Source of the DNA: Mesorhizobium sp. M1E.F.Ca.ET.045.02.1.1
Lineage (GTDB): Bacteria > Pseudomonadota > Alphaproteobacteria > Rhizobiales > Rhizobiaceae
Length of the DNA: 64,000 bases
Assembly: GCF_003952485.1 (NCBI RefSeq)
Contig: NZ_CP034447.1
Span: 3,734,501-3,798,500 of the forward strand
Direction of reading: 5' to 3'
Below the pieces are notes generated by a model. It was not told where the DNA came from, did not search any database, and worked only from the letters and a program-made list of their open reading frames with translations. Made by a program: the position numbers and the translations under genes. How positions within the stretch are numbered: position 1 is the first letter of the stretch; the number at the start of each line of letters is the position of its first letter. Below, in pieces: positions 9,773-59,987 of this stretch.

Positions 9773-9787
9773 TTAACGCTTTGTTAA
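9773..9787 (-). promoter_or_regulatory. CtrA-type box upstream of the histidine kinase gene
   Basis: TTAA-N7-TTAA (TTAACGCTTTGTTAA) is an exact match to the consensus for the cell-cycle regulator CtrA. It ends about 35 bases upstream of the kinase start codon, where it could cover a promoter. Only the match is seen; binding is inferred. Confidence 0.6.
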
Positions 9788-9882
9788 TAAAAGCCTGCGG
9801 GGCGAAGGTCCACAAGCCATGCCGTGTAGCGACCGAAATCTCTGGGCTCTTGGTTAATGGTCGGACGATTTTTATGGTGCGC

Positions 9883-9900
9883 TGCAACAAAGATGTTGCA
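9883..9900 (+). promoter_or_regulatory. Candidate PhaR operator upstream of the phasin gene
   Basis: A perfect inverted repeat TGCAACA-AAGA-TGTTGCA lies upstream of the phasin gene and runs into another TGCA (ATGCAC). From memory, PhaR repressors, which sense PHB, bind TGC/GCA-rich palindromes upstream of phasin genes. The palindrome overlaps the predicted -35 element, as expected for a repressor site. Confidence 0.6.
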
Positions 9901-9924
9901 ATGCACAAAATTTGCCTTTATATT
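9896..9924 (+). promoter_or_regulatory. Predicted phasin promoter
   Basis: TTGCAA (9896-9901), 17-bp spacer, TATATT (9919-9924) fits a housekeeping sigma factor promoter. It lies 60 bases upstream of the phasin start codon and its -35 element overlaps the palindrome at 9883-9900. Confidence 0.55.
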
Positions 9925-9984
9925 GCCATCATACGTGAACGAGACGGCTTTCTGACAAAGCCGCTGCCTCTGAAAGGTTGGAAA

Positions 9985-10446
9985 ATGTCCAAGATTGCCA
10001 AGACTTCTGACACCATCGAAAACGTGGAATTCCCGAGCTTCGACGCCTCCAAGGCCACCGACCAGATCCGCGCCTTCGCCGAGAAGGGCGTCGAGCAGTC
10101 GAAAGAGGCCTATGCCAAGTTGAAGACCGGTGCCGAGGAGACCCAGAAGGTTCTGGAGTCGACCTACGAGACCGCCAAGACCGTTTCCGGCGACCTGTCG
10201 CTGAAGACCATCGCCGTGCTGCGCGCCAACGCCGAAGCCGGCTTCTCGCACCTCGAAGCCCTTGTCGGCGCCAAGACGCTCTCCGAGGTCGTCGAACTGC
10301 AGACCGCCTTCCTGCGCAAGCGCGTCGAGATGGCCCTCGAGCAGGCCAAGGACTTGCAGGCCGTTGCCTCCAAGGCGGTCGAGGACGTCTCCAAGCCGGT
10401 CAAGACCGCCTTCGAGAAGGCGATCAAGGACGTTAAGGCGGCCTGA
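9985..10446 (+). CDS. phaP: Phasin family protein
   Basis: 153 aa, Ala/Lys/Glu-rich and almost entirely helical, with amphipathic repeats such as AYAKLKTGAEETQKVLESTYETAK and ending KAIKDVKAA. Phasins coat PHB granules in the cytoplasm and control their size. The ATG at 9985 follows AAAGGTTGG; the reading frame continues upstream without a better start. A palindrome-covered promoter precedes it, and a 3' UTR with three anti-Shine-Dalgarno-like hairpins follows. Together with the acetoacetyl-CoA synthetase and the putative sRNA it points to a PHB-related neighbourhood. Confidence 0.9.
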   Translation: MSKIAKTSDTIENVEFPSFDASKATDQIRAFAEKGVEQSKEAYAKLKTGAEETQKVLESTYETAKTVSGDLSLKTIAVLRANAEAGFSHLEALVGAKTLSEVVELQTAFLRKRVEMALEQAKDLQAVASKAVEDVSKPVKTAFEKAIKDVKAA

Positions 10447-10523
10447 CAGGTACAACCAAAAGCTGCATCAAAACGTCGCATTTCATCAGACAAATAGATG
10501 TGCGATGAGTTGATCGGATGAAT

Positions 10524-10634
10524 ACCCGGGGATGGAACCTCCTCCCTCCGTTCCCGGGGTGACCAGCCAGCACCTCCTCCCGCTGGCTCGTAACAGGAAA
10601 AGGCCGGCACCTCCTCCCGCCGGCCTTTTCTTTT
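10524..10634 (+). ncRNA. Triple-hairpin RNA with identical CCTCCTCCC loops (cuckoo/CcsR-like)
   Basis: Three consecutive hairpins present the same loop, A-CCTCCTCCC. The first has stem 10524-10536 / 10547-10560. The second has AGCCAGC / GCTGGCT with loop 10572-10581. The third has AAAAGGCCGGC / GCCGGCCTTTT with loop 10609-10618. The stems differ in sequence while the loops are identical, which suggests selection on the loop. CCUCCUCCC is a perfect anti-Shine-Dalgarno sequence and the defining feature of alphaproteobacterial cuckoo RNAs such as CcsR of Rhodobacter. It lies about 80 bases after the phasin stop with no obvious promoter of its own, so it may be the 3' UTR of the phasin mRNA or be processed from it. 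Confidence 0.75.
10598..10634 (+). terminator. Intrinsic terminator of the phasin transcript
   Basis: The third CCTCCTCCC hairpin has an 11-bp stem (AAAAGGCCGGC / GCCGGCCTTTT) and is followed by CTTTT, so it doubles as a Rho-independent terminator. Confidence 0.85.
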
Positions 10635-10782
10635 GCCCGGCTAAAACGGGTGCCGGTCGTTGAACCGGCCTTTGCCTAATCAAAGGCCTTGAATTAGACT
10701 CTGATAGCCCGTATTGGACGCATCGCCGACGACAGCGCGGACGCGGAGAACGGTTTCTCCTCGATTGCGGTCAGGTAGATGT

Positions 10783-10859
10783 GCCGTTGTAGCTCAGTTG
10801 GTTAGAGCACCAGATTGTGGATCTGGGGGTCGCTGGTTCGAGCCCAGCCAACGGTACCA
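10783..10859 (+). tRNA. tRNA-His (GTG), lacking G-1 and with A73
   Basis: A complete cloverleaf is visible. Acceptor GCCGTTG pairs with CAACGGT, the D-arm is GCTC...GAGC, the anticodon stem CCAGA/TCTGG carries loop TTGTGGA with anticodon GTG (10817-10819), the T-arm is GCTGG/CCAGC, and CCA is encoded at 10857-10859. The base before position 1 is T, not G, and the discriminator is A (10856) rather than C. This is the unusual tRNA-His type of some alphaproteobacteria that pairs with a divergent histidyl-tRNA synthetase; such a synthetase is encoded at 42173-43693. Confidence 0.97.
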
Positions 10860-39535: not shown

Positions 39536-39669
39536 GACTGTGACCTTTGGAGCTGGAACCGTTGGCGTGGGAAATTGTGCGCTGCAATAGCAGAGGACGG
39601 CCGGGAAATCAGCCCCCGAAAACGAAACGGCCTGCTTTCGGCGCGACCTGCCGCCAGCCGTGAAAGCGA

Positions 39670-53334: not shown

Positions 53335-54155
53335 GTCATGCCCCGCAACGCAGCCTCGAGAACTGGCACCGTGGACCCAAGCATGGAACGCAGCCGTTCG
53401 ATCGCTGCCCAGTCGGGTTCGCCGCTCCATTCGTCCATGAAGATCTTCTTGAACTCGACCGCTATGGCACACCCGGTCCCGGGGAAATTGGCATGGACGA
53501 AACGGGCCTGCTCGCCCTTGCCCTGGAACGACACATTCTCACGCACATCGATCGGCTCGCCGTTGAAATCCTGGCCGCGCAGCGCCTCCGTGAAGGCGTC
53601 GACGACCGGCGCCCAGCGCGCGCGGTCCATCGAGAACGTGCCGATATTGATATCAGGCGCGCCATCTTGCGACGCAGGCACTGCTTTCGGCCCTGCACGC
53701 CGGTGGTTGTAGCTGTGGACGTCGACAAGGACGAACCTGCCGTAACGTGTCTCGACATCGGCAAGGACACGCCTGAGCTCGCTGTAGAAAGCGTCGTGAA
53801 AGGCGAGAGACTCGTCCACAACGTCCTCGGCCGGTGGCTCTCGCCATACGTGCAGGCCCCAGGACTGGTCCGGCGACCGATAGACCGCAGCCTCGCGCGC
53901 TCGGTTCAGATCGACTTGGAAGCGCGATCGATGAACGATAATCTGGGTTGGGAAATCGGCAATGAAGTGCTCGGTGAAGGGATCCTCCTCCCGCAGCCGA
54001 TCAGGGTCGGGGATGCACATGAGCGACTGGCAAGCGCGCCCGACGTCGGAGCCGCTGTGGATCGCCGTGCCAATGACGGGGGAATCGCCAAGCTTGATCG
54101 TCCAGCCTGCCGGCGACCCGCTCGCAGCATTGTTGAAAATAGGCTTGCTCACCAT
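53331..54155 (-). CDS. N-formylglutamate amidohydrolase-like protein
   Basis: 274 aa. FGase-family hydrolase with HSGSDVG, VHRSRFQVDLNRAREAAVY, LVDVHSYNHRR and AVEFKKIFMDEW, which supply putative zinc ligands and a carboxylate-binding Arg. The true substrate may be a C-terminal or free N-acyl-glutamate. First gene of the three-gene operon with DUF1704 and the ATP-grasp gene. The ATG at 54155 is the best start. Confidence 0.82.
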   Translation of the reverse strand: MVSKPIFNNAASGSPAGWTIKLGDSPVIGTAIHSGSDVGRACQSLMCIPDPDRLREEDPFTEHFIADFPTQIIVHRSRFQVDLNRAREAAVYRSPDQSWGLHVWREPPAEDVVDESLAFHDAFYSELRRVLADVETRYGRFVLVDVHSYNHRRAGPKAVPASQDGAPDINIGTFSMDRARWAPVVDAFTEALRGQDFNGEPIDVRENVSFQGKGEQARFVHANFPGTGCAIAVEFKKIFMDEWSGEPDWAAIERLRSMLGSTVPVLEAALRGMT

Positions 54156-59892: not shown

Positions 59893-59987
59893 GGCAGCCG
59901 GCATTTTGCTGCGCTGCAACATAAGAGATTGCCTGTCCTGCCTGCCTCTGCAATAAGCTTCGCCAGCAAAAGTGAAGGCGAAGGCCC

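Follow-up and report, generated by a model that had tools for sequence, protein, structure and literature searches.

Mesorhizobium sp. M1E.F.Ca.ET.045.02.1.1 carries, behind a phasin gene, an array of three hairpins that belongs to an established RNA family, cuckoo/NfeR1 (ar14), and not to CcsR1. The phasin gene and the array probably constitute one PHB-responsive unit (a probability of roughly 0.6), the RNA of which would silence mRNAs rich in Shine-Dalgarno sequence. The case is built on sequence, structure, conservation, operator matches and co-occurrence with the PhaR gene, from which transcription, processing, PhaR binding and targets at this locus are predicted. The window is the whole 64,000-nucleotide stretch analysed, and positions in Table 1 refer to it; statements on cited papers refer to the accessible parts of their text.

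The hairpin array and its phasin host

An exact search of the window finds CCTCCTCCC on the + strand at 10538, 10573 and 10610, and the whole-window count of 4 matches (0.72 expected) was reached by none of 100 shuffles; the fourth copy (53984-53992), inside overlapping ORFs and without an array, is probably due to chance. Each array copy lies inside a 10-nt loop, ACCUCCUCCC, with an unpaired probability of 1.0 in the fold, on stems of 12, 7 and 14 pairs, which bears out the three hairpins with one shared loop described, at the right coordinates, in an earlier note on this DNA. The covariance-model search suggested there returned Rfam ar14 above its cut-off, and the array has the structure of that family: three hairpins, CCUCCUCCC unpaired in each, and stems that vary yet stay paired. 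The CcsR1 model (RF02791) scored 32.8 bits, below its cut-off of 65.3, and membership was rejected; of the former label "cuckoo/CcsR RNA", the cuckoo part stands as ar14/NfeR1 and the CcsR1 part falls.

Table 1. Features of the phasin locus in window coordinates
Feature	Position	Strand	Evidence and remarks
PhaR-type operator 1, TGGTGCGCTGCAACA, predicted	9875..9889	+	17.2 bits with PhaR matrix
PhaR-type operator 2, TGTTGCAATGCACAA, predicted	9894..9908	+	20.5 bits; overlaps -35 box
sigma70-like phasin promoter, TTGCAA-N17-TATATT	9896..9924	+	consensus match, not proof
phasin gene, 153 aa	9985..10446	+	PF09361 55.6 bits (cut-off 24.9); TIGR01985 141.9 bits (cut-off 99.7)
3'UTR spacer, length peculiar to the genus	10447..10524	+	61-UTR alignment; may fold into a hairpin
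ar14 RNA, Rfam RF02344 limits	10520..10634	+	70.1 bits (cut-off 58.8); own-genome search recovers the same locus
hairpin 1	10525..10558	+	loop ACCUCCUCCC 10537-10546; two-sided changes in 7/10 consensus-helix pairs
hairpin 2	10565..10588	+	loop ACCUCCUCCC 10572-10581; two-sided changes in 5/7 pairs
hairpin 3	10595..10632	+	loop ACCUCCUCCC 10609-10618; T-rich stretch after; two-sided changes in 3/13 pairs

The gene upstream is a phasin by both Pfam and TIGRFAM models, and the array probably lies in its 3'UTR, as first proposed; a tRNA-His (10783-10859) lies downstream. A terminator scan reported 0 sites, admitting loops of 3-8 bases only, and hairpin 3 went unscored because its loop size is outside that range; from a reading of its sequence and its conservation, it is a probable terminator. 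A simple consensus scan of 9780-10780 finds the phasin promoter as the sole promoter-like site. Two PhaR-type palindromes accompany it at a spacing of 19 bp, one of them covering the -35 box, and the Sinorhizobium meliloti phaP1 and phaP2 promoters have two PhaR-site copies flanking the -35 (PMC12542648). With predicted operators at 9875 and 9894 and a PhaR gene in the same genome (PF07879 match at G000:C1:2377588-2377767), the locus carries the sequence marks of the PhaR regulon, and the tie to PHB that had been suspected is plausible.

Between the phasin stop and the array, the genus has approximately 60 more nucleotides than other genera, often foldable. The simple consensus scan finds no promoter-like site in the spacer (10447..10524), and a promoter there was rejected as a candidate. 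The same scan finds at the window array no sigma70 promoter directly before the RNA such as NfeR1 has, a trait of NfeR1 that is not part of the Rfam definition of the ar14 family.

The genome has four ar14 matches at three loci: the phasin locus, a tandem pair after two DUF1127 genes (L079) and a free-standing copy (L080). The tandem pair adjoins a trmFO-like ORF (by eye), a neighbor seen also in S. meliloti. The earlier note set a phasin host here against the DUF1127 hosts of related RNAs; the host is indeed a phasin, but the genome also has this separate DUF1127-hosted locus. The best 30 ar14 loci of the genus all follow DUF1127 genes (30/30; hosts recognized by text pattern, three proteins confirmed with Pfam).

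Conservation of the array and its stems

The motif follows the orthologous phasin in 61/61 genus genomes examined (69-100% phasin identity); within 230 nt past the stop, 54 of the 61 loci have three exact copies, six have two (one of these interrupted by a contig end) and one has a single copy. Among 3200 shuffled versions of the 3' regions (50 for each of 64 loci, a set that includes three paralogs), none has two or more copies, and no motif lies within 500 nt downstream of the three own-genome phasin paralogs, which are the paralogs examined. The first motif begins about 90-100 nt after the stop in the genus.

A survey of the GTDB family with one genome per genus found a phasin match in 76 of 101 genomes, and 68 loci from 67 non-genus genomes were read, leaving out the seven genomes with the weakest phasin matches. 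Of these loci, 19 have at least two motifs, 6 have one and 43 have none; at 23 of the 25 motif-bearing loci the phasin is at least 56% identical to that of the window. The distance from stop to first motif is 48 and 78 nt at two of the 25 and 27-38 nt at the other 23, where it is too short to hold a promoter outside the coding sequence; judged by this spacing, the array is almost surely phasin 3'UTR at those 23 loci. Of 20 family loci scanned with the Rfam ar14 model, 16 scored over its cut-off (L117, despite its three motifs, falls under it), and the array has been lost at some phasin orthologs (L104, L113 and L114) that retain the phasin and the tRNA. In other families of the order, no motif was found at 26/26 phasin loci read (the reading at order level covered 27 loci, from a set of 95 matching genomes, and one of these loci, L129, repeats a family genome). 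Conservation of the loops at related phasin loci, on which the original idea had been staked, thus survived, at 61/61 genus loci and 25/68 others of the family.

Covariation was measured on 25 aligned three-motif arrays picked from 65 (11 of the family and 14 of 54 genus loci). Two-sided changes were found in 15 of 30 pairs of a structure derived from this same alignment (shuffled mean 5.8, reached by 0/500 shuffles), and 96.9% of alignment cells pair, compared with 38-64% paired and 5-7 two-sided pairs in slid controls. A stem of at least 6 pairs encloses 98% of the 230 motif positions downstream of phasins, versus 29% with shuffled flanks. The constant loop and diverging stems previously noticed are accordingly fixed loops on covarying stems in these 25 arrays.

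Predicted PhaR-type operators at cuckoo loci

With a matrix made from 11 published PhaR-bound S. meliloti sites and a threshold of at least 12 bits, a PhaR site is predicted at 61/61 phasin promoters of the genus and 64/68 of the family. The 12-mer pattern of operator 2, TTGCANYGCACA, has 8 matches in the 7.35-Mb own genome (1 in a backward control), and two of these eight strict sites are at cuckoo loci, those of the phasin and of DUF1127. The best 30 DUF1127 loci of the genus have TGCAnYGCA upstream in 30/30 cases, 17 of them in the strict form; the free-standing L080 has no PhaR site of at least 8 bits. Elsewhere in the window, a PhaR-type palindrome at 39575-39589 (15.9 bits) has a strict 12-mer 52 nt before a FolD-like ORF on the - strand, and another at 59907-59921 (17.4 bits) lies just before a hotdog-thioesterase-like 152-aa ORF (59988, + strand). 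A strict site at G000:C1 2379586, about 2 kb from the PhaR gene, precedes a citrate-synthase-like ORF (all three ORFs by eye).

Among the matches listed, cuckoo loci of other genera number 121 (122 surveyed minus L328, which has no motif; own-genus rows G000 and G011 left out), a survey that favors high-scoring copies; only one of the 121 is phasin-hosted. A PhaR site is predicted within 400 nt upstream of 81/121 listed loci (2.6% in shuffles, 1.7% in random stretches of the window) and within 620 nt upstream of 88/121 (2.4% in block shuffles, 3.0% in random window stretches), leaving 33/121 without one; the 620-nt limit was adopted because 400 nt missed tandem DUF1127 hosts, where the site is near -450 to -480. 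De novo and with no prior, TGCAnTGCA was the top enriched pattern (61/121 listed loci, 0.8 expected). Sites of listed loci are near -281 to -308 with hosts recognized as DUF1127 by text pattern and mostly at -70 to -73 or -92 to -206 with other hosts. A second enriched pattern, GCATnGCTG (51/121 listed loci, 2.6 expected; 350 nt upstream, L211-L240 and L253-L344), might be an LsrB-type box. Positional specificity is weaker because sites are also in excess downstream: 30 loci with long flanks (620 nt) have 25 upstream, none far upstream and 8 downstream, and listed loci overall have sites in 10/116 downstream stretches of 200-250 nt versus 48/121 upstream stretches of 250 nt. The downstream excess may come from linked units, for example the second DUF1127 promoter in S. 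meliloti.

The PhaR gene (PF07879) is present in 88 of 101 family genomes. Among the matches listed, a site is found at a cuckoo locus in 66/70 genomes with the gene versus 2/10 without it (Fisher p 7e-7, kinship ignored; 61/70 versus 2/10 at 400 nt), and by locus in 95/125 versus 3/23; the repeats L345, L358 and L347 were left out, and some added loci are weak matches. Four of the 70 PhaR-bearing genomes have no site at a listed cuckoo locus within 620 nt. As for the two PhaR-less genomes with a site, the G091 assembly is a 96%-complete draft, and the match in G104 is under the cut-off, with no exact motif. A caveat to the comparison is upstream GC, which is lower in PhaR-less genomes (0.45) than in PhaR-bearing ones (0.56).

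In S. meliloti, a PhaR site upstream of SMc02051 is published as a prediction, and the same paper lists SMc02051 as raised in the phbC phaR strain relative to phbC, with 1.51 and 4.63 as the table entries (PMC12542648). The main text of that paper, as accessible, contains neither "NfeR1" nor "DUF1127". SMc02051 (L244:5500-5697, S. meliloti 4H41), "uncharacterized" in that text, is a DUF1127 protein by Pfam and lies directly behind NfeR1; a second DUF1127-like ORF follows it. In all 11 Sinorhizobium/Ensifer contigs with the SMc02051 region, cuckoo motifs precede SMc02051; TTGCACTGCACA stands before those motifs in 10/11 (L245 ends there), and 10/11 have a DUF1127 ORF after them (L249 ends at that point). 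The second array of L244 was taken as NfeR1 because it has the published LsrB box TGCA-N6-GCAT; a matrix scan found no PhaR site of its own, and TTGCACTGCACA is about 155 nt before the first motif of the first array. On pSymA, a PhaR-type site, TGCTGCGATGCAATA, lies 71 nt upstream of the first SmelA075 motif. NfeR1 is published as LsrB/NtrC-controlled, with its own sigma70 promoter (PMC10746234), and of its six copies in S. meliloti one was reliably seen by Northern in the conditions tested (PMC7143759). PhaR repression of the others, which would await PHB, could explain this single visible copy.

Predicted targets, rival explanations and significance

The proposed mechanism begins with PhaR, which would repress the shared promoter of phasin and array through the two predicted operators until PHB accumulation draws PhaR off, as described for S. 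meliloti. One transcript would then yield the phasin mRNA and, cut from its 3'UTR by an endonuclease, an RNA roughly 110 nt long that displays three redundant anti-Shine-Dalgarno loops and has hairpin 3 as its end. The amount of array RNA made may thus be set by stored carbon. The loops would pair with ribosome-binding sites of the GGAGGAGG type and lower translation, mainly of nutrient-uptake ABC transporters. NfeR1 has anti-Shine-Dalgarno loops that silence mRNAs of ABC transporters and ntrB by blocking ribosome-binding sites (PMC8844928, PMC10746234).

The full 9-nt loop complement before a start codon (GGGAGGAGGN3-10ATG) occurs at 7 places in the 7.35-Mb genome (1 in a backward control), a number that makes the "global translation" of the earlier note look too broad; its other suggestion, a sponge for another RNA, is supported by no finding here. 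Six of the seven sites open long ORFs, and one a 2-aa frame. Four of the six are ABC transporter parts (Pfam), with leaders predicted to form loop duplexes of -20.6 to -20.7 kcal/mol, and the other two are FMN-monooxygenase-like and MmgE/PrpD-like (by eye), a composition that hints at an enrichment of ABC transporters. The 8-nt core has 35 sites versus 8 in the control; among 30 that were read, many are inside longer frames. Pairing in cis with the ribosome-binding site of the phasin itself was tried as a candidate and rejected as weak (-6.5 kcal/mol at the window locus).

The array might instead be an independent ar14 RNA that merely lies behind the phasin, with a promoter in the genus spacer or the phasin coding sequence and PHB irrelevant to it. 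NfeR1 and L080 are free-standing, NfeR1 with its own sigma70 promoter (PMC10746234), and the extra nucleotides of the genus spacer would offer space; against this, the simple consensus scan found nothing promoter-like from stop to array, though a promoter of another type or one inside the coding sequence may exist, and in other genera the short gap at 23 of the 25 loci with an array points the same way. This explanation is judged unlikely. Slightly less likely still is that a different regulator of TGC/GCA boxes (such as LsrB or NtrC) binds the cuckoo-locus palindromes, in which case the family-wide PHB link would be wrong and the phasin link might hold. The LsrB (TGCA-N6-GCAT) and NtrC (TGC-N11-GCA) boxes of the NfeR1 promoter are TGC/GCA palindromes as well (PMC10746234), and GCATnGCTG recurs at 51/121 listed loci; the spacing of those boxes differs, however, the matrix was built from PhaR-bound sites, the sites co-occur with the PhaR gene, and SMc02051, the DUF1127 gene beside NfeR1, was raised in phbC phaR over phbC (PMC12542648).

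The hairpins could also serve the phasin mRNA alone, by terminating it and protecting its 3' end; the loops would then be a structural habit or pair with the phasin's own ribosome-binding site. In favor of such a role, hairpin 3 is the sole terminator-like structure seen behind the phasin. Against it, the loops stay identical while stems change, and within the own genome three phasin paralogs lack an array; the loop pairs with the phasin start at a genus median of only -7.1 kcal/mol (58 loci with a start found), compared with -16.9 to -20.7 kcal/mol at the six candidate targets, and this role is considered improbable. A unit in which phasin and array respond together to PHB is the preferred reading. 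Cuckoo RNAs look like the RNA arm of the PhaR regulon because most other ar14 loci surveyed share the operator; that the cuckoo/ar14 RNAs of the family as a class act as a post-transcriptional PhaR arm, most copies (phasin-hosted, DUF1127-hosted or free-standing alike) being released by PHB and damping nutrient uptake, is given even odds.

The RNA itself is of a known kind; the novelty, relative to the literature searched, is in its phasin host and in the family-wide occurrence of PhaR-type operators. NfeR1/ar14 of S. meliloti (RF02344) likewise has three hairpins with CCUCCUCCC in every loop, variable stems and a length of about 115-123 nt, but it is free-standing under its LsrB/NtrC-controlled promoter, whereas the window copy is in a phasin 3'UTR behind a promoter predicted to be PhaR-controlled. 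CcsR1-4 of Rhodobacter sphaeroides ("CIN1") also carry CCUCCUCCC in hairpins that follow a gene for a small protein, sharing one transcript with ccaF1 (DUF1127) from which RNase E frees them (PMC10253847); they differ in host, in their RpoHI/RpoHII promoter and in the CcsR1 model, which stays under its cut-off here. The cuckoo family (SmelA075/SmelA099; Reinkensmeier) has the same loop motif in 2-4 adjacent hairpins, and its 2011 description mentions neither phasin nor PHB in the accessible text (PMC3927594). MmgR of S. meliloti is an sRNA whose gene is repressed by PhaR/AniA and which is tied to PHB and phasins (PMC12542648, PMC7143759); it is a separate gene acting on phasin expression, whereas the window RNA would be inside the phasin transcript itself. 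A partial literature search found nothing joining NfeR1/cuckoo RNAs with PhaR or phasins, and earlier mention is possible; where papers contain both terms, the accessible text brings up AniA or phasins when it deals with MmgR or AbcR. Among the M. huakuii sRNA candidates in the accessible text of PMC5596092, none could be matched to the window locus.

The proposed link would connect PHB status with NfeR1-type riboregulation, which have been studied separately as regulators. Symbiosis and osmoadaptation both involve a contribution from anti-Shine-Dalgarno RNAs of the NfeR1 type, most copies of which are silent in the conditions tested; the PhaR link, if true, names an inducer. Carbon storage would thereby gain a direct feedback on nutrient uptake.
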